DNA from: a candidate division KSB1 bacterium
GTDB taxonomy: Bacteria; Zhuqueibacterota; Zhuqueibacteria; Residuimicrobiales; Krinioviventaceae
Assembly (NCBI GenBank): GCA_034521575.1
Contig: JAXHMJ010000005.1
Location: 1,302,001 to 1,366,000, forward strand
DNA: 64,000 nucleotides
Direction of reading: 5' to 3'
The translations under genes were made by a program, and so were the position numbers. Positions 17,397 through 64,000 of this stretch are shown here, one piece after another; position 1 is the stretch's first letter, and the number at the start of each line of letters is the position of its first letter. The notes beneath the pieces were generated by a model. The model saw only the letters and a program-made list of their open reading frames with translations, was not told the DNA's origin and searched no databases.

Positions 17397-17631
17397 CTAA
17401 AGAGTTAATAATTTCCGTCGGTTATAATATAATTATACTTTTTGCCTGATTCAACAAAGAAAAAAAAGAATTCGTCAATATACCCCAAAGACCGTATTTT
17501 TTTTCAGGTTTTAAACATAATTGTTAAAAATATAAAATATCATTTTTAATTTAATAAAATAAATGATATGTTAAGATAGTCATACAATAATTATCATTAT
17601 TTCCGTAAAAAAATCACAACAGCTGAAAAAT

Positions 17632-18291: not shown

Positions 18292-18574
18292 ATTATGGAG
18301 GTATTATCTTAATATTTACTTTGAGCATCAACGCAGATTAAACTTTAATGCTTTAGATGTGAAATATGAATCGTTTCTCGAGAGCCCGGTAAACATTCTA
18401 ACTCAGCTGATCGAATTCTGTGAACTCAGAAACAGTAAAAACACAGTAAAAGATATATGTAATGTCATAGACACAACACGGAAAAATGCCTATAAACAGG
18501 ACAAAGATTTAGTCAATTTTTACCATTCAGTCAAATCGGACATAATTATGCAAAAATTATACGGTCAAAATTGA
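18200..18574 (+). pseudogene. sulfotransferase, 3' part in a shifted frame
   Basis: From about codon 20 (YCLLHLLEKGFELWRYYL) this frame gives the C-terminal part of the sulfotransferase encoded upstream, including the family's VKYESFLESPVNILTQLIEFC segment. Residues before this are an artefact of reading the overlapping region out of frame. Together 17632-18574 would encode about 313 residues, a normal length for the family. Confidence 0.78.
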
Positions 18575-18632
18575 AAATAATCAGAGCTTTGTTCAAAATA
18601 GCATAAAAAGCAGAAAAAGTTTGATCCCAAAT

Positions 18633-19892: not shown

Positions 19893-19901
19893 AAGAGAAA
19901 T

Positions 19902-20813
19902 ATGTCACTCGAAAAAAAATGGTTAATCATTATAGTAAACTACAACACAGCTTTGCTTACCCTCAAAGCGATAAAATCAATTTACAAAAGCAATATCAAT
20001 AATTTTGACATAATTGTTATCGACAACAACTCGAGTGATAAAAGTGTAAAATTGATATCATCAACATTTCCCAGCCTTCAGATGATTGTAAACAAAACCA
20101 ATGTGGGATATGCAAAAGCCAACAATCAGGCTATTCGTTTGACGCAAAACGAATATATTTTACTCATGAACAGTGATACTGAAATGATTACCCAACATGC
20201 ACTGCAAAAACTGCAACAACATTTTGAAAAAGAGCAACAGACAGGGATAGTTGGCGCTGTTCTCCTAAATTCAAAGAAAAAAATCCAGTCAGCAGGCCGG
20301 CCATTTTTAACACTTTCTCAAATGATTAAAAAATACCTGTTTTGTTACGAGCCGAATAAAATCCAAAATTCAAGCACATCTTATCCAGTGGATTACGTTG
20401 ACGGAGCATTTTTAGCCATTCGGCGAAGTGCAATCAAAAATATTGGGTACATGGATGATAATTTTTTTCTTTTTGCAGAGGACATGGATTGGTGCAAACG
20501 TGCCTGGTTATGCGGCTGGCAGGTTCGCATTGCTCCGCAAATTCTTGTTTTGCATCATCATGGTGCCAGTTCAACACAGGATTTTACAAACGCATTGATC
20601 AGCAACGGTAAAAGTATTTACTATTACATGCAAAAATACAATCCCGGTCATGCTCAGATGGCATTTATTGTGTTTTGTATTGCACTGGGGTTACGTATTC
20701 CTTTGGCTATTCTTCGACATACCGGCCTTGCTGGTGACTATTGGCGGGCTTTAAAGTGCTGCATTCAATTGCTTCCTCGTCTTGAAACTCTGAATAATCG
20801 TAATACGTTATGA
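19902..20813 (+). CDS. glycosyltransferase family 2
   Basis: 303 residues. N-terminal LIIIVNYNTALLTLKAIKSI, then VIDNNSSDKS, NVGYAKANNQAI and the metal-binding motif MNSDTE are the GT2 (rhamnosyltransferase WbbL-like) hallmarks. DGAFLAIRRSA and AEDMDWCKRAW form the acceptor-side motif (ED). A hydrophobic C-terminal segment may associate it with the membrane. It overlaps the next gene by 4 bases. Confidence 0.93.
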   Translation: MSLEKKWLIIIVNYNTALLTLKAIKSIYKSNINNFDIIVIDNNSSDKSVKLISSTFPSLQMIVNKTNVGYAKANNQAIRLTQNEYILLMNSDTEMITQHALQKLQQHFEKEQQTGIVGAVLLNSKKKIQSAGRPFLTLSQMIKKYLFCYEPNKIQNSSTSYPVDYVDGAFLAIRRSAIKNIGYMDDNFFLFAEDMDWCKRAWLCGWQVRIAPQILVLHHHGASSTQDFTNALISNGKSIYYYMQKYNPGHAQMAFIVFCIALGLRIPLAILRHTGLAGDYWRALKCCIQLLPRLETLNNRNTL

Positions 20814-21940
20814 AAAAGATCGGTATAAATGCTATACTCTATGCACCATCACACGGCGGTATTGCTGTGTATATGAAATATTTAATACAGGAATGTTTGA
20901 AACATGAAAGCAAGCCGTACTTTTTTGTAAAACAAAATGAAATCAAAAACCTGGATATTCAGAAAAAATCATCACAAATCATTCCGGTTCATATACCTAC
21001 CTCCCCTGCAGCGCTAAGATTATCACTTGAATGCGTAATCTGGCCATATCTTTTAAAGCGCTATAACATACAATGTTTTCATAGCACCATCTCTTATCTG
21101 CCTCCGGGTATCAATAAACCGTCGATCGTTACAGTACATGATCTTCGAGTATTTCACTATCCCGAAACATTCAGCACATGGAGAAGGAAATATCTAATGA
21201 AAACGATTCCGGAATCAATCCGGAGAGCAAATAAAATTATTGCAATTTCCCATTGCACCCGCAAGGACATTATCGATCTATTTGCATGTCCTCCTGAGAA
21301 AATAAAAGTCATTCCACATGGAATTGATCAAACAAGGCTGCATATGACATTCTCGGAAATCTTGAAAAATGCCACTCTAAAAAAATATTGTTCTTATCCT
21401 TATTTATTGTTGGTTGGACATCTGGAACCTCGTAAAAATTTTCTTCGATTTCTGCAGGCGTTTCAATATTTAAAAACCACAAAAAATATTTCTGAACATG
21501 TCGTGATTGTCGGAAAATCAAACCGATACACCTCCATAATAAAACAGGAAATAGACCGGCTGTCATTAAAACCCTATGTTCATTTGACCGACTTTGTCAA
21601 CTATACAGAATTGGTCATTTTATATCAAAATGCCCGACTCGTTGTCTCCCCTTCGATTTTTGAGGGATTTGGTTTCACACCGTTGGAGGGCATGGCGGCT
21701 GGAAAACCTGTTATTGCATCCAATTGCTGCGCTCATTTAGAGACATTATCGCAGGCCGCTCTTTACTTTGATCCCTTTGATGTAAAAGATATGGCCGAAA
21801 AAATCTATGTACCTCTCCGGGAGCCCCAATTATACAACTCTCTGGTATTAAAAGGTGCAGAGCAGGCAGCAAAATACAGCTGGGAAACATGCTGTAAAAA
21901 AACTATAAAACTTTATGAGGATATATCAAACACATTATGA
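20810..21940 (+). CDS. glycosyltransferase family 4
   Basis: 376 residues, GT-B fold. N-terminal GGIAVYMKYLIQE is the acceptor-side glycine loop; LLVGHLEPRKNFLRFLQAF and PSIFEGFGFTPLEGMAAG (the EX7E region) are typical of GT4 enzymes. VHDLRVFHYPETF is typical of mannosyltransferase-like members. ATGA overlaps on both sides show operon membership. Confidence 0.92.
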   Translation: MKKIGINAILYAPSHGGIAVYMKYLIQECLKHESKPYFFVKQNEIKNLDIQKKSSQIIPVHIPTSPAALRLSLECVIWPYLLKRYNIQCFHSTISYLPPGINKPSIVTVHDLRVFHYPETFSTWRRKYLMKTIPESIRRANKIIAISHCTRKDIIDLFACPPEKIKVIPHGIDQTRLHMTFSEILKNATLKKYCSYPYLLLVGHLEPRKNFLRFLQAFQYLKTTKNISEHVVIVGKSNRYTSIIKQEIDRLSLKPYVHLTDFVNYTELVILYQNARLVVSPSIFEGFGFTPLEGMAAGKPVIASNCCAHLETLSQAALYFDPFDVKDMAEKIYVPLREPQLYNSLVLKGAEQAAKYSWETCCKKTIKLYEDISNTL

Positions 21941-23001
21941 AATCCTTGAGCATACTATTTTTACCACAAACAACCTTGATTGGCGCATCAAGTCGGGCGC
22001 GTATTTATCAATATCTGGAAAACATCAAAAACTCACCATTTCAGTATAAAATTGATGCAGGCTGTTCTGTTAAGCTTGATCAGAACTTTTTGAAAGGACC
22101 TTCTCTGCTGCAAAAAATCCACTGGTATATATCAAAAATATACGGGCGCCTTAAATATCTGTTTCAACTAGATCAATATGATTGTATTTTTATACAACGC
22201 GAATCTCTGCCTTATTTTTTTCCGTTTACTGAATTACTCTTGATAAAATGGGCAAAAAAATCAATTTTTGATTTTGATGACGCTATTTTTTACCATTATC
22301 AAAAGAAAAACTGGTTGCAGTTATTTATGGACTACCATGCTGTTGAACGTATATTAAAGACTTGTAATACTGTCATCGTGAGTAATTCCTATCTTGCAGC
22401 CTATGCCCGGCGTTTTAACCAAAATGTGCATATCATTCCCACAAGTATAAATATACAAAATCAAAAAAAGAATAAAGCAGAAAATCATCCCCCCATTATT
22501 GGATGGATGGGCAGCAATGCCACACGCCAGTATATAATTGATCTACTGCCCATACTTGAAAAACTTGGACAATCCACCCCTTTTATCCTCTATATTGTCG
22601 GAACAAAAATCAACAGTAAACATCTGAAAATTAAATGTTTTGATTGGAAAAAAGAAAAAGAGTGGCAATATCTCGACTCTTTTGATGTCGGTATTATGCC
22701 TCTTCCCGATACACCTTGGACACGCGGTAAAGGTGGTTACAAATTATTGCAATATATGTCAGCAAATGTCCCCTGCGTAGCCTCGAATGTCGGCATGAAC
22801 AAAGAAATCATTGAGCATAACGTCAATGGACTACTGGCCTCTACAGAGGAGGAATGGTTGCAATATTTAAAAACGTTGCTGAAAAATAAACAAAAAGGGA
22901 AACTGATCGCCTCAAACGGCTGGAACACGGTTAATAAAAAATATTCAATACAGGTAAATCTCAGAAATTGGAAATCAGTTATACATCAAACGTGCAAATA
23001 A
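21937..23001 (+). CDS. glycosyltransferase, GT4-like
   Basis: 354 residues. Family features are less strict: FDFDDAIF, PTSINI (nucleotide-binding half start), IGWMGSNATRQYI, IMPLPDTPWTRGKGGYKLLQYM and MSANVPCVAS. These match a group of GT4-like transferases in Bacteroidota polysaccharide clusters. AT-rich like its neighbours. Confidence 0.83.
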   Translation: MKSLSILFLPQTTLIGASSRARIYQYLENIKNSPFQYKIDAGCSVKLDQNFLKGPSLLQKIHWYISKIYGRLKYLFQLDQYDCIFIQRESLPYFFPFTELLLIKWAKKSIFDFDDAIFYHYQKKNWLQLFMDYHAVERILKTCNTVIVSNSYLAAYARRFNQNVHIIPTSINIQNQKKNKAENHPPIIGWMGSNATRQYIIDLLPILEKLGQSTPFILYIVGTKINSKHLKIKCFDWKKEKEWQYLDSFDVGIMPLPDTPWTRGKGGYKLLQYMSANVPCVASNVGMNKEIIEHNVNGLLASTEEEWLQYLKTLLKNKQKGKLIASNGWNTVNKKYSIQVNLRNWKSVIHQTCK

Positions 23002-23006
23002 GTAAA

Positions 23007-24083
23007 ATGTCAATCAATGTATTACATGTAACAGCAATCAGCGATATAGGCGGAGCTGAACGCATCGTCTTGAAATTGGCGGAGCATTCTCCCCCCCCGT
23101 ACCGATATGTAATTACCAGTCTGTCAGGAAAGGGGGAATTGGGTAAATACGCCGCACATTTGAACATCCCTTATTATGACCTTGATATCAAAAAAATATG
23201 GGCATTCCCAAAAATGTTTCATCGAATACTAAAGCAGCATAATATAAAAATCATACAAACTCACGGCTTAACCGCAGAATGTGCCGTAATTTTTGCTGCA
23301 GGATTTAAATATGCACCTTTGATTCCAACCCTCCATGGCGTTCATGATTATAGTGACGGCATCAAAAAGTATGTTATTCAAATGGCAAGACCTTTCGCAG
23401 ATCACTGGATATCCGTTACCCAAAAAGGAAAACAGATTCTTACAGATATTCATATCCCGCCAAGCCGTATTCAGGTAATACCTAATGGTCTGCCGGTTAA
23501 AGACATCCCGGCTACAGTAAAACAGAATAACAGGTGCTTTAATGTATTAACAGTTGCCAATCTTCGGCCTGTTAAAGGTCATATATATTTACTGAAAGCT
23601 ATAAACACAATCATAAGGTCTGGACATCGTAATATTCATTTTACTTTGGTAGGGCGAGATGACATGCACAGCCGTCTGCAACAGTACGCAAAAGATTTAA
23701 AGATATCTGATTATATTACCTTTACAGGATTTAAAAAAAATATAAATTATTTTCTTGGAAAAGCGGACCTTTTTGTATTACCTTCTTTATCAGAGGGATT
23801 GCCACTCTCTATCATTGAGGCAATGTATTGCAGGTTACCGGTCATTGCAACTAATGTCGGAGGCATTCCGGAAATTATTATCCATAAAAAAACAGGGCTG
23901 CTGGTCGAACCGGCAGACAGCGAAGATTTATACAGAAAAATTATGACTTTATATCCAAATGCTGAATTAAGACAGAAACTTGTAACCAATGCTTATGATT
24001 ATGCCGTAAAAAACTTTTCAATTACAACAATGATAAAATCTTATGTTCAATTTTATAATCAGGTATTAAAGCATGCCTGTTAG
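23007..24083 (+). CDS. glycosyltransferase family 4
   Basis: About 358 residues starting at ATG 23007, six bases after the previous stop (an upstream in-frame start at 22968 would overlap). IGGAERIVLKLAEH is the N-terminal GT4 loop, NLRPVKGHIYLLKAI the start of the donor domain, and PSLSEGLPLSIIEAMYCRLP the catalytic EX7E-type motif. Followed by an overlapping start of the next transferase. Confidence 0.92.
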   Translation: MSINVLHVTAISDIGGAERIVLKLAEHSPPPYRYVITSLSGKGELGKYAAHLNIPYYDLDIKKIWAFPKMFHRILKQHNIKIIQTHGLTAECAVIFAAGFKYAPLIPTLHGVHDYSDGIKKYVIQMARPFADHWISVTQKGKQILTDIHIPPSRIQVIPNGLPVKDIPATVKQNNRCFNVLTVANLRPVKGHIYLLKAINTIIRSGHRNIHFTLVGRDDMHSRLQQYAKDLKISDYITFTGFKKNINYFLGKADLFVLPSLSEGLPLSIIEAMYCRLPVIATNVGGIPEIIIHKKTGLLVEPADSEDLYRKIMTLYPNAELRQKLVTNAYDYAVKNFSITTMIKSYVQFYNQVLKHAC

Positions 24084-25446
24084 CAGAGCTATAAAGATCA
24101 TCCGTATACAATCAAGAATATGCATTGGGGGTCCCGCTTTGCATACTGAAATTCTGAGCAGGCATCTGTCAAATGAACGCTACCAGACTTTGTTGATTAG
24201 CGGTGCTATTGACAGCAATGAAAGCAGCAAAATTAAAGATTTTAAGCAAAAGGGGATTCCGGTATGTGTCATTCCTGAAATGAAACGCGTCTCGAATCCA
24301 ATTGATGACATCATGGCAATTTACAAATGTTTCAAGATAATCAGAAAGAAGAAACCGAATATTGTTCACACTCACACCGCCAAAGCCGGAACCGTTGGAC
24401 GCCTTGCCGCCTGGCTGGCAGGCGTGCCGTTGATTTATCATACCTTTCATGGGCACACCTTTCACAGCTATTTTTCCAAACCGGTGACCGCCGTGTTTTT
24501 GCTGATCGAGCGTGTTCTCGCCAGACTCAGCACAGCGGTTATTGCCATCAGCCCCTCACAGCTTGATGAACTCGTCAACCGCTATCACATCGCACCCAAA
24601 CAACATTTCAGAATGATTCGGCTCGGACTGGAGCTCGAGCCGTTCAAAAATCTGAAACGCAGAAACAGCCTGAAAAAGAGGTTGGGTCTGGATCCGGATT
24701 CTTGTCTGTTGGGAATTGTCGGCCGTTTGGTCCCCATCAAAAACATCGAAATGGCGCTCAAGGTTACGAGTCAGCTTGAATCCCGATACCATCTTTGCGT
24801 GATCGGCGACGGCCCCGAACGCAATACGCTTGAAATACGCAGCAAAGAACTCGGGCTGGAAAACCGGGTTCACTTTATGGGATGGATTGAAGATATTACC
24901 GGAATTTATGCGGAAATCGATGCGTTATTACTAACATCAAACAATGAGGGAACACCAGTAGCGGTTATCGAAGCGATGGCAGCCTCCATACCAGTCATTG
25001 CGACCGAGGTTGGTGGTGTTCCAGACCTTGTTAAACATGAGTTTAACGGTTATCTTTGCGCGTCACAAGATGTCGTTTCAATGTCCGGTTTTGTACGAGA
25101 TGTGTGTCAGGATCGATCACATACTCTACAAATATGTGAGAATGCACGCCGTTTTGTCTCTCAATATTATGCAGCCCATCGATTGCCTGAGCGATATCGA
25201 GCATTTGTATCAGGAACCAATTCCATAAAGTATCACATTTTTTTCTTTTATAATCTCAATGTTTTTATTATATTACATTGGGGTAAATTCGTATATGGGA
25301 AGAACATTCAGAGCCGGGACACAAGGATTCAGGTCCTGTCCTGGATCGATAAAATCGGGGCCGCCCCGATAGGTTTTATTTTTTATGGTATAAATTTTGC
25401 TATAATTAATAATAATGGCGAGACGAAAAGCAGTTACGAACCTTAG
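24073..25446 (+). CDS. glycosyltransferase family 4 with a frameshifted C-terminus
   Basis: The first ~370 residues are a normal GT4: GGPALHTEILSRHL at the N-terminus, HTHTAKAGTVGRLAAW, VGRLVPIKNIEMAL and LTSNNEGTPVAVIEAMAA. The expected family ending (DIE.LY....) appears only in the adjacent frame as SDIEHLYQEPIP with a stop at 25226-25228. A single-base indel around 25178-25190 therefore makes the frame run on to 25446; the last ~85 residues are probably not real, and the true gene would end at 25228 with ~385 residues. GC content is also mosaic: AT-rich ends, GC-rich middle. Confidence 0.85.
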   Translation: MPVSRAIKIIRIQSRICIGGPALHTEILSRHLSNERYQTLLISGAIDSNESSKIKDFKQKGIPVCVIPEMKRVSNPIDDIMAIYKCFKIIRKKKPNIVHTHTAKAGTVGRLAAWLAGVPLIYHTFHGHTFHSYFSKPVTAVFLLIERVLARLSTAVIAISPSQLDELVNRYHIAPKQHFRMIRLGLELEPFKNLKRRNSLKKRLGLDPDSCLLGIVGRLVPIKNIEMALKVTSQLESRYHLCVIGDGPERNTLEIRSKELGLENRVHFMGWIEDITGIYAEIDALLLTSNNEGTPVAVIEAMAASIPVIATEVGGVPDLVKHEFNGYLCASQDVVSMSGFVRDVCQDRSHTLQICENARRFVSQYYAAHRLPERYRAFVSGTNSIKYHIFFFYNLNVFIILHWGKFVYGKNIQSRDTRIQVLSWIDKIGAAPIGFIFYGINFAIINNNGETKSSYEP

Positions 25447-41119: not shown

Positions 41120-41909
41120 TGATCAAGAATCTCCGCTGGATGAGTTCATAGGTAGCTATTGCTCGAACGTCGTTGAGGGACTCGAATCTCGGTGGAACGC
41201 CCATACGTTAGAGATCTACAAGAACGAAATCTCGGAAGCAATTTGGGGGTTAACTTCGCGCCAAGCTACTCTCGGCTTGGAAATGGCGCGCAATCCCGGA
41301 ATTTGGAATCCTCATGTCGCGCCTATTATTTTGCGAGCGATGATTGATGTTCACATAACCTTGGCATGGATAATTAATGATCCCGAGGATCGCAGTCGGG
41401 ACTACATTCGTTTCGGTCTAGGCCAAGGGAAACTCTATCTTGAATACCTGCAGAATGAGGCAGACCAGATTCCGGAGGGCGAACTAGACCAACCTCTGGA
41501 GGATATCATTGAAATGCGGAAGTCATGGTTGAACTCTCAGTTGATGGAGTGGGCCATTGAGGTAAACGTTGGTTCTTGGTCCGGAAAATCCACGAGGGAG
41601 ATGGCCCAGGAATCCGGATGTGAGTCCCTGTACAAGTTTGCGTACGTGCCATTTAGCGGTCCTGCCCACAGCATGTGGCAGCATGTGGGTATCTATAATG
41701 TTGCGCCTTGCCAGAACCCACTGCATAAGAACCATCGCATGCCGGTTCTAACTGACTTTGATTTCCTGTATCGCTCTGCAAAGTATGAAAGCCGCACCTA
41801 CGAGTTATTGAGCGACAAGTTGCAACTCAATGTTGCGGTTCCTTTACCTGTCGATTTTTTCTTTGAAAACCATCCATTTAAAGGGCGCGAAAATGAAGCG
41901 GACGGCTAA
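41112..41909 (+). CDS. DUF5677 domain protein
   Basis: 265 residues, all-alpha. The conserved portion RAMIDVHITLAWIINDPEDRS near residues 77-97 and the later YKFAYVPFSGPAHSMWQH match DUF5677, a family without a known function that often occurs in defence or mobile regions. The stop codon TAA lies inside the 5' core (GGCTAAC) of the attC-like site that follows. Confidence 0.75.
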   Translation: MTDDQESPLDEFIGSYCSNVVEGLESRWNAHTLEIYKNEISEAIWGLTSRQATLGLEMARNPGIWNPHVAPIILRAMIDVHITLAWIINDPEDRSRDYIRFGLGQGKLYLEYLQNEADQIPEGELDQPLEDIIEMRKSWLNSQLMEWAIEVNVGSWSGKSTREMAQESGCESLYKFAYVPFSGPAHSMWQHVGIYNVAPCQNPLHKNHRMPVLTDFDFLYRSAKYESRTYELLSDKLQLNVAVPLPVDFFFENHPFKGRENEADG

Positions 41910-41963
41910 CCTCGCTATTCCAGCCGACGCAAAAAAACCGCGCGGCTGAATAGCCCGTTATCG
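41904..41963 (+). other. attC-like recombination site 1
   Basis: Core-like ends GGCTAAC (41904-41910) and GTTATCG (41957-41963). Between them GCTATTC-c-AGCCG-a-CGC pairs with GCGCGGCTGAATAGC, leaving two unpaired bases (c and a) on one strand, the signature of extrahelical bases that orient attC recombination. Confidence 0.72.
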
Positions 41964-41983
41964 CATATTAATTCATATAACGC

Positions 41984-42010
41984 TTGACATTTAACGTAGC
42001 ACGTTATAAA
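41984..42010 (+). promoter_or_regulatory. higBA promoter with overlapping operator
   Basis: TTGACA (41984-41989) and TATAAA (42005-42010) are separated by 15 bases. Between and over the -10 is the perfect inverted repeat TAACGT-AGC-ACGTTA (41992-42006), like known HigA operators (TAACG...CGTTA). This supports autorepression of higBA. Confidence 0.65.
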
Positions 42011-42018
42011 TTATCCGT

Positions 42019-42300
42019 ATGATAAAATCATTTAAATGTAAAGAAACAAATAAAATATTCAATCGAGAATATTCAAAAAAGTTGCCACATAATATCCAGA
42101 AAGTCGCTTTTAGTAAGCTGCGAATAATTAACAGAGCATATATATTAAATGATTTGAAAATGCCTCCAGGTAATAGGCTTGAATTATTGCATGGGGATCG
42201 TGAGGGCCAATACAGTATCAGAATAAATAATCAATGGAGAATTTGGTTTAAATGGATTGATCATGATGCAATTGATGTCGAAATTGTTGATTACCATTAA
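42019..42300 (+). CDS. higB: HigB-type toxin, RelE superfamily
   Basis: 93 residues. MIKSFKCKETNKIF at the N-terminus and PPGNRLELLHGDREGQYSIR followed by NQWRIWFKW are the HigB (GraT) family motifs. These toxins are ribosome-dependent mRNA endonucleases. The antitoxin gene follows after 11 bases, toxin first as usual for higBA. Confidence 0.92.
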   Translation: MIKSFKCKETNKIFNREYSKKLPHNIQKVAFSKLRIINRAYILNDLKMPPGNRLELLHGDREGQYSIRINNQWRIWFKWIDHDAIDVEIVDYH

Positions 42301-42311
42301 GGAGATAAATT

Positions 42312-42617
42312 ATGAGTAACAAGAAAATACCTCCCATACATCCCGGAGAGATATTATTCGAGGAATTTCTTAAGCCGATGGGATTAAGCCAAAATAAAAT
42401 TGCTCTTGATATTCGTGTACCAACTTGCCGAATAAACGAAATCATATTAGGTAAACGAAGAATTACGCCTGATACTGCTCTAAGATTAGCAAAATATTTT
42501 CACATGTCTCCACAGTTTTGGCTTGGTCTTCAAATGGATTATGATTTAGATACTGCTGAAGATCAATATGCAGAGAAAATTGAAAAAGAAGTTCAAGAGT
42601 ATCAAGAAGCTGTATAG
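42312..42617 (+). CDS. higA: HigA-type antitoxin
   Basis: 101 residues. IHPGEILFEEFLKPMGLSQN followed by RINEIILGKRRITPDTALRL and FHMSPQFWLGLQ is the diagnostic HigA/VapI XRE-type HTH. It would neutralise HigB and repress the operon through the inverted repeat at 41992-42006. An attC-like site starts 8 bases after the stop. Confidence 0.94.
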   Translation: MSNKKIPPIHPGEILFEEFLKPMGLSQNKIALDIRVPTCRINEIILGKRRITPDTALRLAKYFHMSPQFWLGLQMDYDLDTAEDQYAEKIEKEVQEYQEAV

Positions 42618-42624
42618 AATATTG

Positions 42625-42692
42625 CGATAACGAATAAGCGTTGCATTCGACCTGAACGCAGTGAAGGTCGATATGCGAACGCGGGGTTGGAC
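42625..42692 (+). other. attC-like recombination site 2
   Basis: Ends are CGATAAC (42625-42631) and a perfect GTTRRRY core, GTTGGAC (42686-42692). The arms GCGTTGCATTCGACCT and AGGTCGATATGCGAACGC pair with extra unpaired bases on one side. 68 bases long, directly after higA. The following ~240 bases up to 42934 show no gene. Confidence 0.7.
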
Positions 42693-42934
42693 TTGGCCCT
42701 GACGACTCGCAGCGAGTTTTAGTAGTGGAGTTGTAAGTTAATGGAATTTACATTTTTGGGAAGGCGCTCTACACAACAGTTAAAAACTGTTCAGAAAATA
42801 TATCTCGGAAAAAATACTATAAAAATGAATCATATCAAATCCTGAGCAAGGTTCAAAACAAGCTGTAAACAAGGCAAAACCACTGTTTTCTAATATAAAA
42901 GACATACGTCACCCATGTCATTGAAAATGATTTT

Positions 42935-43126
42935 TTAAAGTTTTGATTTAACAAAGCTTTTTGGAAGAATATGCTGTAAGAACAGATATATGAATTCATT
43001 GGCATCCAGTGACCGGGTTTTCACGGTATCTGTTTGAGCATCTTTATAGCGGAATGTTACCTTGCCATGTTGTAAGTTTATTATGTTTTTGTCAGAAATG
43101 GCTACACGCATGATGTATGGTGCCAA
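42935..43126 (-). pseudogene. IS91-family transposase fragment
   Basis: KYLAPYIMRVAISDKNI... FRYKD ... FIYLFLQHILPKSFVK is the C-terminal part of IS91-type (Y2 HUH) transposases, whose family pattern is YLARY..RVAISN...FRYKD...FL..F..HVLPKGF. Only ~63 codons remain and the frame stops right after the LPK.F motif. A remnant, not an active element. Confidence 0.75.
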
Positions 43127-43128
43127 GT

Positions 43129-43197
43129 ATTTAGGGGGTGGGATAGATTATTTTGAAAAGAAAAAGGAAATTAAAAGATATAATCCCACCCCCCTTA
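43129..43197. repeat. inverted repeat between mobile-element remnants
   Basis: TTAGGGGGTGGGAT (from ~43130) and ATCCCACCCCCCTTAA (to 43197) are near-complementary arms about 40 bases apart. They lie exactly between the transposase and the recombinase fragments and could mark an element end or a recombination scar. Confidence 0.45.
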
Positions 43198-43398
43198 AGA
43201 GCTGATTGTCCGTTTCCAACTGGTTTGATATGACAAACCTATTTCTTTTTTTGCAATTTTAGCAGCATCCTTGGCTTCTTTGAAAGCAATTTGTATACTT
43301 GTCAAAGGAATAGGTTTATCAGTGGTTGGCATAGCGTTTCCACCACGGCCAGGCGCCGGGAATATCCATTTTGGATTTCGATGTGTTTTGTTGTCCAT
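43195..43398 (-). pseudogene. tyrosine recombinase fragment (catalytic-domain part)
   Basis: NPKWIFPAPGRGG near the start, then PLTSIQIAFKEAKDAA, match the middle of XerD-like tyrosine recombinases found beside IS91-type transposases, just before the catalytic HxLR motif, which is missing. In transcription order this fragment precedes the transposase fragment, as in intact elements. Confidence 0.7.
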
Positions 43399-43400
43399 TC

Positions 43401-43547
43401 CTGGAGACGATTGGAAAACCTGCTGAATCGGTAACAGTCGATGATATCAGACGCTATCTTTATACTATGAAAACGCTCAGAAAGTGCAGTCAGGCCAATC
43501 TTAAGCAGGCTTGTAGCGCAATCAAGTTTTTGTTTGACAATTTATAA
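43401..43547 (+). pseudogene. tyrosine recombinase fragment (N-terminal SAM-like domain), inverted
   Basis: The plus-strand frame 43401-43547 encodes 48 residues, including PAESVTVDDIRRYL and CSQANLKQACSAIKFLFDN, the SAM-like core-binding domain of tyrosine recombinases. It abuts the catalytic-half fragment at 43398 but has the opposite orientation, so an inversion or two insertions created the junction. Confidence 0.7.
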
Positions 43548-43672
43548 CTATTGTAATCATTCCCGTAAGAGCCGCAGTTATGTGTGGTTTTTTCCGGGCT
43601 CAACGCAGGATAAAATACTTGATGTTAGGCTTAAAAGGGGGGAAAGTTAGTTGCGATGAATAAAAAAAGTAC

Positions 43673-43702
43673 TTGACTTATAGTATCACAATGTGATATA
43701 TT
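43673..43702 (+). promoter_or_regulatory. promoter and operator of the RelE/HTH pair; probably leaderless mRNA
   Basis: TTGACT (43673-43678), 18 bases, TATATT (43697-43702). A perfect inverted repeat TATCACA-A-TGTGATA (43684-43698) lies between and over the -10. The start codon (43707) is only 4 bases beyond the -10, so transcription should begin at or inside the start codon. Confidence 0.62.
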
Positions 43703-43706
43703 AAAT

Positions 43707-44075
43707 ATGCTCAAACTGAAGACGAAATGGTTTAACAAATGGGCCGGGAAAAATTCAATTCCCGACAGTTCGCTGCTTGAAGCCTTGGAAAATCTTGCCG
43801 GAAATCTCAGCACTTTCAATTTAGGAGGAGGGTTATACAAAGTCCGAACAAGAAGGAAGGGGCGGGGAAAAAGCGGCGGCTACAGAACGATTATCGCATA
43901 TAAAGAAATGGACAAAGCTATATTTATTTATGGATTTTCGAAAAATGAACGCGATAACTTGGATAAAGACGAATTGTACAGTTTCAAAAAGTTGGCCAAA
44001 GATTTATTGCAATTGAGTCATGATGAATATAAACGACAGGAGAAATTAGGCAATTTCTTCCGTCTAGAGGAGTAA
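43707..44075 (+). CDS. RelE/HigB-like toxin (PF06296 type)
   Basis: 122 residues. KTKWFNKWAGKNSIPD, LGGGLYKVRTRRKGRGKSGG and YRTIIAYK...FIYGFSKNERDNL are the hallmarks of this RelE-like toxin family. The HTH antitoxin follows after 4 bases. These toxins are thought to cleave translated mRNA. Confidence 0.9.
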   Translation: MLKLKTKWFNKWAGKNSIPDSSLLEALENLAGNLSTFNLGGGLYKVRTRRKGRGKSGGYRTIIAYKEMDKAIFIYGFSKNERDNLDKDELYSFKKLAKDLLQLSHDEYKRQEKLGNFFRLEE

Positions 44076-44079
44076 AGAT

Positions 44080-44418
44080 ATGAGAGAATCAATCAAAGAA
44101 GCGATCGGAGATACGATCCAAGATTTAATAAAAAATGGGATAAAGACATCCTTTACGGAAAAAGAATTAAAAGAACTTGGGATCAAGATACCCGATATTG
44201 AAATAAATGCTCGAGATATTCAGAGAATCCGAGAGAAGACAAATTTAAGCCAAACAGTTTTTGCAAAAGTATTGAATGTGAGTCCGTCATCTGTGAGGCA
44301 GTGGGAGCAGGGAAAACGAAAACCGACGGGATCGACTAAAGTGCTCTTAGAAATATTGGAAAAGCATCCGTCGATTCTCGACTATAGGATTTCATCCCAT
44401 CGAAATCCCAAAGCCTAA
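44080..44418 (+). CDS. XRE-family HTH antitoxin (NadS/HigA2-like)
   Basis: 112 residues. The C-terminal HTH is IREKTNLSQTVFAKVLNVSP followed by SVRQWEQGKRKPTG, typical of antitoxins paired with PF06296 toxins. The stop codon TAA lies inside the perfect 5' core GCCTAAC of attC-like site 3. Confidence 0.9.
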   Translation: MRESIKEAIGDTIQDLIKNGIKTSFTEKELKELGIKIPDIEINARDIQRIREKTNLSQTVFAKVLNVSPSSVRQWEQGKRKPTGSTKVLLEILEKHPSILDYRISSHRNPKA

Positions 44419-44477
44419 CGAATCCGGATGCACTTGACGGCTCTGCTGCGCGCCGCCGCAAGTGATCCAGGTTTTAT
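44413..44477 (+). other. attC-like recombination site 3
   Basis: 5' core GCCTAAC (44413-44419) matches RYYYAAC exactly. GGAT-g-CACTTG-a-CGGC pairs with GCCGCAAGTGATCC, leaving g and a extrahelical, the same pattern as in sites 1 and 5. The 3' core GTTTTAT (44471-44477) is degenerate. Confidence 0.75.
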
Positions 44478-44517
44478 TTAAAAAATTAATTGATATTTTA
44501 TAGAGTTTTGTCTAAAT

Positions 44518-44547
44518 TTGACAAAAATAATTGATAATTTGTATGTT
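44518..44547 (+). promoter_or_regulatory. promoter of the VapBC-like cassette
   Basis: TTGACA (44518-44523), 18 bases, TATGTT (44542-44547), 12 bases before the start codon at 44560. A cassette-borne promoter like those of the other toxin-antitoxin cassettes. Confidence 0.5.
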
Positions 44548-44559
44548 TAGGAAATTATT

Positions 44560-44772
44560 ATGAATGCTTATGATATTGGTAACAAAATTGAAAAATTACC
44601 CGATCATGTGATAGGTGAAATAAATGATTTTGTTGACTTTTTGTTGAACAAATATGGCTCAAAAAAAATCGAAAGTGATAAATTTAATTTTGATTGGGAA
44701 GGTCAATTATCACATTTGAAATCAAAGTATTCATCTGTTGAATTACAACATAAAGCCATGGAATGGCGATAA
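44560..44772 (+). CDS. DUF2281-like antitoxin
   Basis: 70 residues. The N-terminal KIEKLPDHVIGEINDFVDFL is the DUF2281 pattern (LP..v..ev.dFi.fL); the C-terminal half, with WEGQLSHLKSKYSSVELQ, would bind the toxin. It overlaps the PIN-domain gene, as in vapBC-type operons. Confidence 0.78.
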   Translation: MNAYDIGNKIEKLPDHVIGEINDFVDFLLNKYGSKKIESDKFNFDWEGQLSHLKSKYSSVELQHKAMEWR

Positions 44773-45149
44773 TGAAGTTAATTGATACAAATATCTTTTT
44801 AGAGATACTTTTGAAACAAGATAAAAGTGAAATATGTAAAAAATGTCTCGATGATAACATTGGTTCAATCAATATATCAGATTTTACACTTCATTCAATA
44901 GGAGTTATTTTATCAAGGGAAAAGAAAACTGAAACATTCAAGATTTTTTTATCTGATATTTTTCCCAAAACCAACCTTCTGTCCCTGCCTAAAAATAAAT
45001 ATCAAGAACTTATCAAAGCAAGTATAAATATTGGATTAGACTTTGATGATTCATATCAGTATTGTATAGCAAAACATTTTCAATTTAGACTTGTAACAAT
45101 GGATAAAGACTTTAAAAAAGTTAATGATATCAAAGTTGATTTTTTATAA
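44763..45149 (+). CDS. PIN-domain toxin, VapC-like
   Basis: 124-128 residues (start ATG 44763 or 44772). KLIDTNIFLEILL has the first catalytic aspartate of the PIN fold, DFTLHSIG the next motif region, and LDFDDSYQYCIAKHF plus LVTMDKDFKK carry the later acidic residues. PIN toxins cut tRNA or other RNA. A very AT-rich cassette compared with its neighbours. Confidence 0.82.
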   Translation: MAIMKLIDTNIFLEILLKQDKSEICKKCLDDNIGSINISDFTLHSIGVILSREKKTETFKIFLSDIFPKTNLLSLPKNKYQELIKASINIGLDFDDSYQYCIAKHFQFRLVTMDKDFKKVNDIKVDFL

Positions 45150-45216
45150 TTTTGATTTATAGAATTTTAATTTTCTAATGTCCAACACGTAGCTTAAATA
45201 TATTCAATTTTTTTAA

Positions 45217-45336
45217 ATATAACAATTCGCTCAAGCCGACGCAAAGGTCGTGTTTTAAATCTTAAAATCCGCGGTACACCTGCGCTCGTGACTCGCGGGG
45301 TGAGTCACGATTTTCCGGACTTTGCTCGGGTTAGCC
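45217..45336 (+). other. attC-like recombination site 4 (long)
   Basis: Ends ATATAAC (45217-45223) and GTTAGCC (45330-45336). Near the 5' end TTCGCTCAAGCCGACGCAAAG resembles many published attC arms; CCGA-c-GCAAAG pairs with CTTTGCTCGG near the 3' end. The large centre contains a further hairpin, GTGACTC...GAGTCAC (~45289-45308). About 120 bases, the size class of Vibrio repeats. Confidence 0.6.
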
Positions 45337-45415
45337 CATAAATATCCCTTGCAACGTTACGGGTTATACTATATATTGTGATAGTTAAAAGATATTGGGT
45401 GGTTTACCAGATACG

Positions 45416-45606
45416 ATAAAATCGTTCAAGAATAAAGCATTGTCAAAATTATACACTGATGGAGAGTCAGGAGTAAAATTAATCCAGATCATGTTTCAAA
45501 AATTTCAAGGGTACTTGACCGTCTCGATGCTTCTGTAAGTTTGTCACGGCCCTTGCATGTAAAGAATCTTGCAGGCGCAGGTCGTTTCGATGAAAGGAGA
45601 AACAAG
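45416..45606 (+). pseudogene. decayed HigB/RelE-type toxin
   Basis: IKSFKNKALSKLYTDGESG opens like a HigB toxin but with ATA in place of the start codon. The continuation, INPDHVSKISRVLDRLDASV, is in another frame, so a single-base shift lies near 45475. The core and C-terminus are missing; the frame runs into the fucosidase start region. It looks like a toxin gene truncated when the fucosidase cassette arose or was joined. Confidence 0.6.
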
Positions 45607-58293: not shown

Positions 58294-58881
58294 ATGGCAA
58301 AACTGGTAACCGTAGAAGAACCATTACGGGAAAAACTGGGACCTAAAGCATCGGAAAGCCTGATTCATCTGATCAACAAAAGTCAGGAAGAGCAAAAACA
58401 CGAGATGTTGGAGTTTGTGGAAGAAAAATTTGAACGGCGGTTGACGGAAGAAATTGGCAAGGTTAATATAAGTATCGCAAATTTGGAGAATCGCTTTGAC
58501 CATCGCCTCACCACAGAAAGTTCCAAAGTCAATGAACGCTTGACAGAAGAGATTGGCAAAGTCAATGAACGCATGACAGAAGAGATTGGCAAAGTCAATG
58601 AGCGCATGACGGAAGAAATGGGCAAAGTCAATGAGCGCATGACGGAAGAAATGGGCAAAGTCAATGAGCGCATGACGGAAGAAATGGGCAAAGTCAATGA
58701 GCGCATGACGGAAGAAATGGGCAAGGTTAATATAACAATTGCCGACGTCGAAAAACGTCTTGATAATCGTATAACGGAAGAAGTATCCCGGACCCGCGCC
58801 GACCTCATCAAATGGATGTTTATTTTCTGGATCGGTCAAATCGGGGCGATGTTGGGGTTGTTGTTTGCGTTTTTCAAATAA
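58294..58881 (+). CDS. hendecad-repeat coiled-coil protein with C-terminal membrane anchor (LA_3696-like)
   Basis: 195 residues from ATG 58294, preceded by AAAGGAGG. The N-terminal ~30 residues form a small helical domain; residues ~50-165 are coiled coil; residues ~172-193 are one membrane helix (FIFWIGQIGAMLGLLFAFF). The coil centre is a run of near-perfect 11-residue repeats (VNERMTEEMGK), six in a row plus flanking variants, encoded by 33-bp DNA repeats at ~58531-58729. Resembles small coiled-coil proteins annotated as LA_3696/DUF1640-like; function unknown. Repeat number probably varies between strains. Confidence 0.75.
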   Translation: MAKLVTVEEPLREKLGPKASESLIHLINKSQEEQKHEMLEFVEEKFERRLTEEIGKVNISIANLENRFDHRLTTESSKVNERLTEEIGKVNERMTEEIGKVNERMTEEMGKVNERMTEEMGKVNERMTEEMGKVNERMTEEMGKVNITIADVEKRLDNRITEEVSRTRADLIKWMFIFWIGQIGAMLGLLFAFFK

Positions 58882-59234
58882 ATTCGTTTGTAAATGGCTA
58901 ACAACGTGTAACATGCTGTAAAATAAGGTAATAAAATAGTTGATGCGATGTCTTGCGGCGCCTGAGGGTGCAAAGACAAAAATAAAGTAAATACCCGGAC
59001 AGGGGATAAAAAATGCAAAGCTACAAAATGTCGCGTCCCGGATAAACATCTGCCGCTGTGTGCTGAAATCGTATTATTGAAAAGCTTGTTTCATGTGTTT
59101 TGCAGCGCAGCATCCGCGATGCCGTCGTGCAGGGACATCGGGCCCGACATACGGAGGGCGATATATGAGGTTGTCTTGAAAAAAATTAGTCCGGGTTCAT
59201 CCTCAGCAATAGTATCATTGATGACGCTTTTTCT
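58882..59234. other. intergenic region, no gene recognised
   Basis: 353 bases between the coiled-coil gene and the tandem repeat array. I see no convincing frame or RNA; frames here are short and run into the repeats. Confidence 0.5.
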
Positions 59235-60588
59235 TTTTCCTCCTTTTCCAAGGAGGGACGCTTTGTCAGAGGCGGACGCAGTCCGATATCTGACAAATCC
59301 GGGTGGTCCGTGCAGGGTATCGCCTGCAGGTGAGTTGCTGCCGTCAAACACCGTGCCCGGAAGGCGCGGTGTTTGCCCAGATGCGAAAAATTTATACGTA
59401 ATCATTCGGACCGGGTTTGCATGAATACAGCGTTGCGGCTACGGTTTACAACCTACCGGATGATTCACCTCCGAGCATTACTTGTTCTTTTCCCTCCTTT
59501 TCCAAGGAGGGACGCTTTGTCAGAGGCGGACGCAGTCCGATATCTGACAAATCCGGGTGGTCCGTGCAGGGTATCGCCTGCAGGTGAGTTGCTGCCGTCA
59601 AACACCGTACCCGGAAGGCGCGGTGTTTGCCCAGATGCGAAAAATTTATACGTAATCATTCGGACCGGGTTTGCATGGGTACAGCGTTGCGGCTACGGTT
59701 TACAGACCTACCGGATAATTCACCTCCGAGCGTTGCTTGTTCTCTTCCCTCCTTTTCCAAGGAGGGACGCTTTGTCAGAGGCGGACGCAGTCCGACATCT
59801 GACAAAGCCGGGTGGTCCGTGCAGGGTATCGCCTGCAGGTGAGTTGGTGCCGTCAAACACCGTACCCGGAATGCGCGGTGTTTGCCCAGATGCGAAAAAT
59901 TTATACGTAATCATTCGGACCGGGTTTGCATGGGTACAGCGTTGCGGCTACGGTTTACAACCTACCGGATAATTCACCTCCGAGCGTTGCTTGTTCTCTT
60001 CCCTCCTTTTCCAAGGAGGGACGCTTTGTCAGAGGCGGACGCAGTCCGACATCTGACAAAGCCGGGTGGTCCGTGCAGCGTATCGCCTGCAGGTGAGTCG
60101 CTGCCGTCAAACACCGTGCCCGGAATGCGCGGTGTTTGCCCAGATGCGAAAAATTTATACGTAATCATTCGGACCGGGTTTGCATGGGTACAGCGTTGCG
60201 GCTACGGTTTACAACCTACCGGATGATTCACCTCCGAGCGTTGCTTATTCTTTTCGCTCCTTTTCCAAGGAGGGACGCTTTGTCAGAGGCGGACGCAGTC
60301 CGACATCTGACAGAGCCGGGTGGTCCGTGCAGGGTATCGCCTGCAGGTGAGTTGCTGCCGTCAAACACCGTACCCGGAAGGCGCGGTGTTTGCCCAGATG
60401 CGAAAAATTTATACGTAATCATTCGGACCGGGTTTGCATGAATACAGCGTTGCGGCTACGGTTTACAACCTACCGGATGGTTCACCTCCGAGCATTACTT
60501 GTTCTTTTCCCTCCTTTTCCAAGGAGGGACGCTTTGTCAGATGCGGACGCAGTCCGACATCTGACAGAGCCGGGTGGTCCGTGCAGGG
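59235..60588. repeat. 254-bp tandem repeat array, five full copies and one partial
   Basis: The marker AGGAGGGACGCTTTGTCAGA recurs at 59251, 59505, 59760, 60014, 60268 and 60522, a period of 254-255 bp. Each unit contains several hairpins: CCCTCCTT-TTCC-AAGGAGGG, GTCAGA...TCTGAC around GGAC/GTCC, GCAGG...CCTGC, and CAAACACCG...CGGTGTTTG. Units differ by only a few bases. Overlapping frames in all directions occur only because of the repetition and are not genes. The sixth unit breaks off at ~60588, where unrelated sequence begins. Confidence 0.92.
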
Positions 60589-60666
60589 CATGCAGTTCAA
60601 TAAAAATGTGTCCGCAGAGCAACCAGCCATGAATGCGCAAATACAGCCGCGAATCCACCCCCGTGA
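60589..60666. other. junction between bacterial repeat array and foreign-looking sequence
   Basis: Repeat similarity ends at ~60588. The 5'-truncated Cys-rich frame opens at 60667, right after a TGA. CCGTGA...TCACGG (60661-60676) is a small hairpin at the edge. No gene is visible in these 78 bases. Confidence 0.5.
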
Positions 60667-62847
60667 AAACTCACGGACATTGCTGTCTGTAACGAGAATT
60701 ATAAGGGTTGGGAGATTGAGGGAAGATACTGTCATTATGACAATTATGTAACTGATTATTCTTTCTGTGGCTCAAGAGATAGGTGTTATAAGTCTGGTGA
60801 TTCTTCATGCTCTTATGTTGCTGATGGTGCTGGGGCTTCAAGGGATGTTGGCGGCGATGCCAGGCTTTGGTGCGGGTACAGTTGTTATCCTGTTACTGGC
60901 AAGACGTGTGAGGAGACTACTATCGGTGCTTGGTATGATGGGGATTCTGCTTCTAATGTCTGTGAGAATGCTAATATCAATGGCGGAAATGGTTTAGGTG
61001 TTTGGACTTTTGGAACCTGCGGCAAGAGTGTTTGTGATACTGCTGATGGTTCTGGTGATTATTGTTGTGGTGATGATTTTAATGAGGCGTATGTTTCCAC
61101 TGACTGCGATGGCAGTTCAGTTTCTTTTTGCTGTCCTTCGGGCAGTGTTGTGAAGGATAGCAGTTGTGTTTCAAAGTGTGATATGCAGGCGCCTGTTGAG
61201 ACTTTCTTTTCTGTTAATGGTCAGGAAGCCGGTACTGTTTATACTAGTAACCCCACGGTTAATATTGTTTCTTCTGGTGAGGATAATATTGGTATTGACC
61301 GGTATGTTTTGTATTATCAGGCTACAGTTAGCATACGGCTTTTATTCTGGGAAAGTAACCCTGAGATGCTAGCATTTGTTTCCGGTTCAGGCACGAGTCC
61401 TGACACAAAAGCGTATTCTGTCTCTTTGACCGAGCCAGACGAGTACGCTTTCAACGCTAAGGTTTATGATGCTTGGGATAATTCAGGTAATGAGTTAGGT
61501 TCGATAATTGTTTGTTATGATGATGAAGCTCCGGCGTTTATTGATGAATCAACTGCGTCATCATTGGGTCTTGATCCGGTAAGCATCTCTTCAATTGATA
61601 GGACAGCTACGGTTTCTTGGGTTCCTTGGGATGCAGGTTGCGCATCTTTTGATAATTCTATTGAGTGGTTTTTTGGGGGAGTTTGCAATCCTTCGCAGTC
61701 TCAGGGCGCTACTTCAATCTCTTCGAATAGCTTCTATTCTGAGGGTATTTACCTGGGAGAAGAGTATTACACTTCTAAGACTTTTTCAACTTACGGTCCT
61801 GTTTCTGCCAGGATAACTGTTACTGATGCTGCTGGCAATAGTTTCCAGAGCGATTGCTTGTCTGTTACGCTTGAGGCTAGCACTCCTACGTGTTCTGCTG
61901 CATGTTCTTCTTATGATGGCAGTGTTTGTGATTCTTCTCCTTTCACTGACGATCATGGCACTGTCGTATCATACTCAGGGGATAATGTTTGTGGGGAGGA
62001 TTGTTATTGTGTTGATTGTGATGGCGGTTACTCTTGGGATGCTAATTCGTTGGAGTGTTATCTTGACTCGCCTGATTTGGCTGTGACTGATATTTCTGTT
62101 GTTCCTGATCCTTGTTCTGTTTCCACTTCTGCTGATGTTGAGGTTACTGTTGAGAATATTGGCTCTCAGCCGATTCAGAGTGTGGATGATAATGTGTTTT
62201 CTGTTACTTTGAGTTATTCTGTTGGTGGCTCGGAGTATTCTCTTACTCAGTCTAGTATGGGGGACACGATTGTTGCTGGTGGTTCTAGAGTTTATTATTT
62301 TAATGATGTTTCTGGTCCTGGTTTTTGTGATTTTACTGTTTTGGGTGGTTTTGAGGAGTCTAAGCTTCTTTCTGTTTCTGTTACGAATACTCCTGCTGAT
62401 TTTAATTCTGCTAATGATGATGCTACTTATTCTCTTTCGTGTGAGATGACGTGTGATGATTGTATGGTTGCTGATGGTGATGCTGGCTGGTGTGCTAACA
62501 GTGATGGTTTGTGCTGGTATGACTCAACTCAGGGCAAGTGCCTCAGGGATTCTATGGTTTGGCAGGGCGGCGCCTGTGTGAGTTGTGTTGGTGATAATCA
62601 GTTTAGTGGACCGTATTGTTCTGTTGATTCTCACTGTTGTGGTTATCCTGACATGGCTAGTTACTGTGATCTTGAATATTTAGGACCTACTAAAGGAGTC
62701 TGCACTGGAACAGGATCGCCTTGCAGTCCCACCTGGTCTGATCCGGAGTCCATAGATGAAACCTCAGGAAAAGTTTGTTGTGATGCAGTCCTTCATGGTA
62801 CAGGAACTTATTATGCTGATCTTTTAGACTATGTAGTTTATGGATAG
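60667..62847 (+). CDS. Cys-rich secreted/surface protein, 5'-truncated, foreign-looking
   Basis: The frame is open from 60667 without any ATG, GTG or TTG until GTG 61150; the ~160 residues before that codon are clearly coding (Cys-rich, for example CGYSCYPVTGKTCEETTIGA). So the N-terminus is missing at the junction. Downstream are Ig-like segments, a CARDB-like domain (PDLAVTDISVVPDPCSV, then VEVTVENIGSQ) and Cys-rich modules (CDDCMVADGDAGWC). Codons end strongly in T, unlike the genes before 59 kb. Proteins of this style are frequent in DPANN archaea (Woesearchaeota/Pacearchaeota and relatives); that assignment is inference. Confidence 0.72.
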   Translation, partial: KLTDIAVCNENYKGWEIEGRYCHYDNYVTDYSFCGSRDRCYKSGDSSCSYVADGAGASRDVGGDARLWCGYSCYPVTGKTCEETTIGAWYDGDSASNVCENANINGGNGLGVWTFGTCGKSVCDTADGSGDYCCGDDFNEAYVSTDCDGSSVSFCCPSGSVVKDSSCVSKCDMQAPVETFFSVNGQEAGTVYTSNPTVNIVSSGEDNIGIDRYVLYYQATVSIRLLFWESNPEMLAFVSGSGTSPDTKAYSVSLTEPDEYAFNAKVYDAWDNSGNELGSIIVCYDDEAPAFIDESTASSLGLDPVSISSIDRTATVSWVPWDAGCASFDNSIEWFFGGVCNPSQSQGATSISSNSFYSEGIYLGEEYYTSKTFSTYGPVSARITVTDAAGNSFQSDCLSVTLEASTPTCSAACSSYDGSVCDSSPFTDDHGTVVSYSGDNVCGEDCYCVDCDGGYSWDANSLECYLDSPDLAVTDISVVPDPCSVSTSADVEVTVENIGSQPIQSVDDNVFSVTLSYSVGGSEYSLTQSSMGDTIVAGGSRVYYFNDVSGPGFCDFTVLGGFEESKLLSVSVTNTPADFNSANDDATYSLSCEMTCDDCMVADGDAGWCANSDGLCWYDSTQGKCLRDSMVWQGGACVSCVGDNQFSGPYCSVDSHCCGYPDMASYCDLEYLGPTKGVCTGTGSPCSPTWSDPESIDETSGKVCCDAVLHGTGTYYADLLDYVVYG

Positions 62848-62861
62848 AAAAGAATTCTTTT

Positions 62862-64000
62862 TTATTCTGGTTTTGGAAGCTCAAGTTTTTCTTTTTTTAT
62901 GATTGAGTCGAGTGGTATGTTTAGTGTGAGTGCGCCAAGGTGGTGTTCAGGTGATATTTGTATCTGGTTTCCTGGTGGTCCGTAACTGACTGAAGCCACA
63001 TATCCCTGTTCATGGTTCATCTCCCTTGTATCTCCATACATTGTTCCTGCTGCTGCGTCTTCCATCTCGTTTGTTACGTCTTCTCCGTTTTGTAGTGATG
63101 TTGTTACTTCTGATAACCCTCCTGCTCTTCTTGGTGTTCCAAGATCTCCTCTGTTTATTCTTGCGAATCCTTTGCTTGTGTGTTCCCCGTCTGGTATGGA
63201 ATTTGCATCAGAGCCGTTTACAGAAGGACTGTAGGTTGATATCAGTACCATGTAATCATAATCTTGTAGTATGTTTCCTGCCATGAAGTTACCTACAATA
63301 TAGCTTTCCTCAGCGCCATTATTTGCTTCTATATATACCGAGTCTGCCTCTGCCCTTGTTTGCAGTCTTATCAGGTTGTCTGTTGATTCTGGCACCTTGT
63401 CTATTAGCCAGTCTAAATTCTCCTGTGTGACTGGAAAGCCATCCGTGTTTGAAGTATTCACGTAGACTGTCCTTAGTGTTCCTTTTGGGAGTTCTTCGCC
63501 ATACTTTTTTTCCGGGTCCCATATCTTATTCTGAACATAAGTTTCTCTGTCGCTGTCCCCGTATACGCCGTGTGCGTTTATCACGAGAGCCATCTGCTCG
63601 TCGTTTTTCCAGGCTACTGGAACTGCTTTCAAAGGCGTGTCTTTAAGAAGTGAGTCAAGGTTCATGTCTTCTGTTCCTATGTCAAGGTCCCATTCTGTCA
63701 TCATTCGTCCGCCGCTGGAATCTGTTTGCATTTTGTATTGTCCTGGCGCAACCTGTATTGCAACCCTGCCATTCTCATCTGTTGTTATAGCGTAGTCTCC
63801 GAACATGACGTCAAGCGCCTTTACAAGCTCTTTGTTTATTGGGTCTTTGAAGGTTGCTGTGATGTCTGCTTCTGGTTCTACGCTGACTCGAACGTTTGCT
63901 TCACTGTACGCACCTGAAAAATCGCTTACGCGGATGGTTATGTCTGAGTGTCCGCTTTGGTCTTTTGCAAGGCTTTCTAAGGTTAGTTTTCCATCTTCGA
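62862..64000 (-). CDS. large surface protein, C-terminal part (incomplete at window end)
   Basis: The minus-strand frame stays open to the window edge, so the gene continues outside; the visible part has ~378 residues. The first residues (LTLESLAKDQSGHSDITIRV, then SDFSGAYSEANVRVSVEPEA) look like a VCBS/cadherin-like Ig repeat. Next is a carboxypeptidase-regulatory-like segment (ITTDENGRVAIQVAPGQYKM). The rest is not recognised. It converges on the Cys-rich gene with 14 bases between stop codons. Probably same foreign origin. Confidence 0.62.
   Translation of the reverse strand, partial: EDGKLTLESLAKDQSGHSDITIRVSDFSGAYSEANVRVSVEPEADITATFKDPINKELVKALDVMFGDYAITTDENGRVAIQVAPGQYKMQTDSSGGRMMTEWDLDIGTEDMNLDSLLKDTPLKAVPVAWKNDEQMALVINAHGVYGDSDRETYVQNKIWDPEKKYGEELPKGTLRTVYVNTSNTDGFPVTQENLDWLIDKVPESTDNLIRLQTRAEADSVYIEANNGAEESYIVGNFMAGNILQDYDYMVLISTYSPSVNGSDANSIPDGEHTSKGFARINRGDLGTPRRAGGLSEVTTSLQNGEDVTNEMEDAAAGTMYGDTREMNHEQGYVASVSYGPPGNQIQISPEHHLGALTLNIPLDSIIKKEKLELPKPE

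Follow-up and report, generated by a model that had tools for sequence, protein, structure and literature searches.

The sharp boundary near 60.6 kb of the 64-kb window (the whole stretch of DNA analysed, 64,000 nucleotides) probably marks the left end of about 7.5 kb of genuinely inserted foreign DNA, which comprises two tandem, partly homogenised gene pairs that may have been captured via one-sided homology. We hold it to be very probable that the insertion is a real acquisition and not an assembly error, because host sequence is found at all three of its edges and because a second capture of the same kind lies on another contig. We infer the route of entry, the homology-based mechanism, the function and the donor of the captured genes, and the claims made for them below are graded accordingly.

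The foreign block and its host surroundings

The window corresponds to C5:1,302,001-1,366,000, in the interior of the 2.62-Mb contig C5; the genome consists of 5 contigs and 5.26 Mb. The block begins inside the window and continues past its right end, where positions are given as window equivalents. The features of the region are as follows.

58294..58881, plus strand: host coiled-coil gene with 33-bp internal repeats, left flank; a dispersed family (18 matching places in the part of the genome sampled)
58880..59230, plus strand: host dispersed-repeat modules, left flank; 86-96% matches at C5:0.32, 0.40 and 2.55 Mb and at C1:0.545 Mb
59226..60588, plus strand: array of 5.4 copies of a 254-bp host tandem repeat, which also occurs elsewhere in the genome as single or double units
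60589..60681, plus strand: host repeat tail ending in the palindrome CCGTGAAAACTCACGG, the last host DNA before the putative junction, identified by matches to host loci
60682..64000 in the window and on to ~68,220 (C5:1,362,682-1,370,220), no strand: foreign block of ~7.5 kb, an outlier in composition and codon use
60682..62847, plus strand: Cys-rich foreign gene P0001, truncated at its 5' end; 726-aa frame whose first five codons are host, with no start before 61,150
62862..65234, minus strand: foreign secreted protein gene P0002, copy A, 790 aa, convergent with P0001; its start at 65,234 (C5:1,367,234) lies beyond the window
62,480-65,159 (the window ends at 64000), no strand: a unit that is partly duplicated, first copy; the second, 91% identical over 2.3 kb, spans 65,461-68,103

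Host DNA continues on both sides of the block. On the left, a UbiA-like gene has homologues of 42-51% identity within the host order. Downstream of the block, we named glnA, amtB, a sigma-54-type regulator and more host genes from their translations, and homologues of GlnA at 72-79% identity occur elsewhere in the host family and order. Host character (GC and skews) resumes past the block and holds for at least 115 kb. The gene for archaeal ribosomal protein L21e was not found in the host genome, and the assembly is thus not visibly mixed with an archaeon. We also considered whether the rest of C5 might be an archaeal genome joined at 60.6 kb, and rejected this reading given the host-like 115 kb downstream and the absence of L21e. 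The coiled-coil gene of the left flank carries tandem repeats of 33 bp (11 residues; window 58,294-58,881 and 58,524-58,731), and its relatives at many places in the genome vary in repeat number and are conserved in the non-coding sequence downstream.

The change in composition reported in the original prediction is real. The tetranucleotide distance of the block is 0.376, compared with 0.135 +/- 0.034 for 369 host windows, none of which lies as far out (7 SD), and the AT skew of the whole block, -0.34, is likewise 7 SD outside the host. AGA and AGG account for 80-82% of Arg codons in P0001 and P0002 versus 17% in the host (99.8th percentile), ATA accounts for 74% of Ile codons in P0002 versus 15% in the host, and the CpG observed/expected ratio is 0.64-0.80 in the foreign DNA versus 1.11-1.19 in three host stretches. 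A switch to T-ending codons had also been described. It holds for P0001, in which third-position T reaches 0.594 against a host mean of 0.277 and a maximum of 0.424 among 554 long ORFs, but not as a codon preference: the minus-strand gene P0002 has third-position A of 0.44 and T of 0.15. Because the T excess is on the plus strand for genes of both directions, it is a property of the strand, and the neighbouring host DNA lacks such a bias. P0001 is indeed rich in Cys, as claimed (6.6% versus 1.1% in the host); the description of the proteins as CARDB-like rests on a Pfam match below threshold (E 0.05; the score is 14.3 bits and the cut-off 22.7). When all ORFs in 2.58 Mb, about half of the genome, were scanned with a codon model, the window block and a locus on contig C2 ranked highest, and the next entries were mostly short or low-complexity frames.

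Other parts of the genome are unusual in ways of their own. The strongest composition outlier after the foreign block is C5:702-717 kb (L084, ~2,500-17,500), with a GC content of 0.29-0.33. Glycosyltransferase-like genes at window 17,600-25,400 sit in a low-GC island (~0.37), which is ordinary for surface polysaccharide loci, and at window 41,900-45,500, also low in GC (~0.36), ORFs of at least 150 aa occur at the edges only. A long simple-sequence-like repeat region at C2:282-287 kb (L138, ~1,990-7,280) has ORFs that translate as repeated RGQRSEVRGQR.

The only genes in the block are those of a convergent pair, in which a Cys-rich gene faces a gene for a secreted protein; the pair is present in two copies that match in part. 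In copy B, the Cys-rich member is a 113-codon remnant of a P0001-like gene (65,466-65,807), and the P0002-like gene facing it (65,804-68,118) has one frame break near 67,740. P0002 is composed of an internal YPNP/FlgD-like module, a PKD domain and a body without a known family. Residues 133-211 score above the cut-offs of two models for the T9SS type A sorting domain/Por_Secre_tail, TIGR04183 (29.2 versus 23 bits) and PF18962 (28.3 versus 27 bits). P0002 resembles T9SS type A cargo in passing both of these models; unlike in such cargo, the domain is internal and near the N-terminus (133-211 of 790) rather than C-terminal, and P0002 therefore cannot be filed as normal T9SS cargo. A fold prediction for the P0002 body from two sequences gave a mean pLDDT of 32.8 and was not usable.

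Identity between copies A and B is uneven, ranging from 97-100% mid-gene down to 67% near codons 590-630, and dS is 0.5 at the 3' ends versus 0.04 in the middle. Because the 3' ends are so much more diverged than the middle, a recent simple duplication does not explain the copies. Gene conversion between paralogues explains the uneven divergence. The difference between the copies ranges from 0 to 33% from one stretch to the next, and they may go back to two paralogues in the donor instead of a single duplication. The overall dN/dS ratio between them is 0.33, falling to 0.08-0.11 in the conserved middle, so purifying selection has acted on the P0002 type for at least some of its history. The start-less Cys-rich fragments are probably inert passengers, and P0002 copy A, which is intact, may be expressed from host-derived 5' sequence. 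A candidate archaeal TATA box upstream of copy A was dropped, as the first 27 codons are host-like and the promoter region may be host-derived.

Host sequence at the junctions and inside the foreign genes

At the left edge, the 254-bp array (59,226-60,588) stops at the position originally described, and the frame that opens at 60,667 does lack a start: its first ATG, GTG or TTG is the GTG at 61,150, 483 bases on. The gene had further been thought to be truncated exactly where the array ends. Instead, 93 bp of host repeat lie between the two, and the host/foreign junction appears to fall at about 60,682. Across the end of the array, 60,568-60,639 aligns with C5:1,697,535-1,697,607 (78%, E 1e-7), and 60,661-60,681, which reads CCGTGAAAACTCACGGACATT, matches host repeat tails at C5:1,700,682 and C5:1,250,472 (95% over 21 bp, with an E value of 0.03 for each of these short matches). 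With the junction placed there, the frame that opens at 60,667 would begin with five codons of host repeat. The palindrome, found at window 60,661-60,676 and at L109 and L112, is dispersed and terminates host intergenic repeats, and the repeat that it marks is one of several modular families recurring in varying order.

The original prediction saw one boundary, but the block ends at ~68,220 with host genes after it. At this right edge, 68,220-68,381 (window-equivalent) belongs to a host module that recurs at 86-88% in C5, C2 and C1, and host DNA resumes at ~68,220-68,235. Between copies A and B, 65,356-65,405 is the start of a host module that has several copies in the genome; this is the weakest of the three junctions, the matches being short (33-36 bp, 83-85% identity, E ~0.001). 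All three host/foreign junctions, left, middle and right, thus bear host dispersed-repeat modules. Of the 2.58 Mb examined, only 2.8% falls in repeats of at least 3 copies or within 20 bp of one, so that modules at every edge are not expected by chance.

Host sequence is also found within the foreign genes. We applied a codon-style score, trained on the P0002 body, along copies A and B and along the ORF at the C2 locus. Copy A is foreign in codon style from aa 28 onward and host-like only at aa 1-27. Copy B is foreign at aa 7-100, host-like for ~52 codons centred on the YPNP motif and then foreign again, with per-codon scores of -0.42 to -0.43 in the YPNP patch between stretches of +0.24 to +0.33. 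The calls for aa 1-27 of copy A and aa 1-6 of copy B are weak, as these stretches are short. At the DNA level, the YPNP patch of copy B matches host YPNP genes (82% over 57 bp, E 1e-7), and the host genome contains at least about 145 YPNP/FlgD-type modules. The simplest reading is that the patch would have arisen through gene conversion by a host YPNP gene after the foreign gene arrived.

The second capture, at C2:26.5-28.14 kb (locus L110, 5864-8155, equal to C2:25,864-28,155), has the same convergent layout as the C5 block. The front of its ORF consists of a host-style signal, CPD-like and YPNP region, and the codons turn foreign at ~aa 200-222, where third-position T rises from 0.2 to 0.6 and the frame is unbroken. 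After a frame change the ORF runs on as P0003, and its convergent partner is a Cys-rich fragment that lacks its 5' end and adjoins a host coiled-coil gene. The host modules of the right and middle junctions of the C5 block recur ~0.8-1 kb past the C2 locus. The fusion point on C2 lies after the YPNP domain, however, so that the homologous anchor is only a presumed one at this locus, which counts against the capture model proposed below.

Relatives, donor and rival explanations

P0001 has no relative in the 81 other genomes of the phylum or in phages, plasmids and viral contigs, and the P0002 body has none in the same 81 genomes. The N-terminal module of P0002, however, finds its best match in G064, a genome of the host's class, where a 521-aa gene aligns with it at 30% over 155 aa (E 8e-14), well past the limits of the YPNP motif. 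That gene is also the single relative of P0003 in the phylum (30%, E 2e-16). Pattern scans of genome contigs detected no relative of the conserved C-terminal part of P0002 or of the Cys-rich tail, pattern scans of viral contigs and tblastn against phages and plasmids found no donor relatives, and neither P0001 nor P0002 had hits in PHROGs. With no donor found, the label "foreign" rests on composition and on absence from 81 relatives. To the eye, the body of P0002 resembled that shared by P0003 and the G064 gene, but a profile comparison gave a probability of homology of 0.1%, and we do not claim it.

The G064 gene (G064:C261, L170) is like the captured genes in its signal peptide-like start, Ig/CPD-like domain and internal YPNP domain. 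Its body is homologous to P0003 on C2 and not detectably to the P0002 body, and no Cys-rich partner is among the genes listed beside it in the 3.7 kb read. At G064:C261 ~1,000-3,660, the P0003 homologue lies beside a truncated paralogue of its own N-terminus and a GIY-YIG-like gene, and an IS200-like transposase gene (RAYT-type by eye) is next to it.

In copy A, the N-terminal module of P0002 already shows the foreign codon style, so the donor itself had such modules. This bears on the idea of an inter-domain transfer from a DPANN archaeon. AGA/AGG and ATA use, CpG depletion and Cys-rich proteins may recall DPANN archaea, and the block would fit in its Cys-rich proteins, which 81 genomes of the phylum lack, in the 80% share of AGA/AGG among Arg codons of both foreign genes, in the ATA share of one (74% of Ile) and in its CpG depletion. 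Low-GC bacteria and CPR bacteria, too, often favour AGA/AGG. With the module type present both in the host's class (E 8e-14) and, in foreign codon style, in the donor, and with the only match of P0003 being a gene of that same class, an archaeal donor becomes less likely, and we regard it as unlikely overall. A mobile element such as a plasmid, phage or integron-like cassette could account for the repeated capture of one layout, for the repeats at the edges and for the transposase gene next to the G064 homologue; yet integrase, transposase and replication genes are all absent from the block, phage families gave no hits, and collections of phages, plasmids and viral contigs gave no matches, which makes this route quite improbable.

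Two further explanations do away with transfer altogether. The original prediction preferred misassembly, a false fusion of the chromosome with DNA from some other organism in the sample, and the abrupt change in composition, the start-less gene and the repeats at the edge are all what a chimera might leave. It would, however, need at least two false joins at the block and further ones on C2, it would have to place host-specific repeat modules at every edge with host DNA continuing on both sides, and it leaves unexplained the host-like patch within a foreign gene and the C2 ORF that changes codon style in frame; we therefore consider it very unlikely. Still less credible is that these are native, fast-evolving genes under a local, strand-biased mutation process. 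The T excess does follow the DNA strand rather than gene direction, and the type of N-terminal module exists in the host and its class, but a strand bias does not explain the CpG depletion or the shift from CGN to AGA/AGG on both strands, the protein families are missing from all relatives, and the adjacent host DNA lacks the bias. Foreign insertion, the other reading offered by the original prediction, is well supported by the composition outlier, the host flanks, the modules at the junctions, the mosaic codon pattern and the second capture.

Proposed capture through one-sided homology

How could such DNA have been joined to the chromosome? Foreign DNA can integrate through a homologous stretch at one of its ends while the opposite end is joined illegitimately, an event known experimentally as homology-facilitated illegitimate recombination (HFIR; PMC3240628). 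The process is like the present case in involving a kilobase foreign segment with one end plausibly anchored by homology and the other joined without it; it differs in that the event here is deduced from a finished genome and that the anchor would be a short, degenerate protein module. Three different truncation points are seen inside the Cys-rich gene, which leave 726, 113 and 129 residues of frame, and the opposite end of each captured piece lies in or just upstream of a YPNP-type gene and is joined to host sequence. One homologous and one illegitimate end would leave such boundaries.

We tentatively propose that the foreign genes were captured in this way. Pieces of donor DNA would have entered the cell and been joined to the chromosome by one-sided homology, for which the YPNP module, present in at least about 145 host genes, would be the obvious recognisable stretch. 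The other end would have been joined illegitimately inside the Cys-rich gene, beside host repeats. Once resident, the captured genes may then have acquired host sequence in their 5' parts by recombination, with the Cys-rich fragments remaining as start-less passengers. A broader version, in which host YPNP modules serve as standing recombination anchors that repeatedly import distant, possibly archaeal, surface-protein bodies behind host promoters and secretion modules, is speculative, and we think it improbable.

What appeared to be an assembly scar is thus read as one of two places in a single genome where captured genes for foreign surface proteins are spliced to host sequence. When a metagenome-assembled genome shows a break in composition, it should accordingly not be trimmed automatically as contamination. 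The mosaics show how a bacterium could use its own secretion signals for adhesin- or protease-like bodies of foreign origin, and how a short shared module may be enough to let in DNA from a very distant source.
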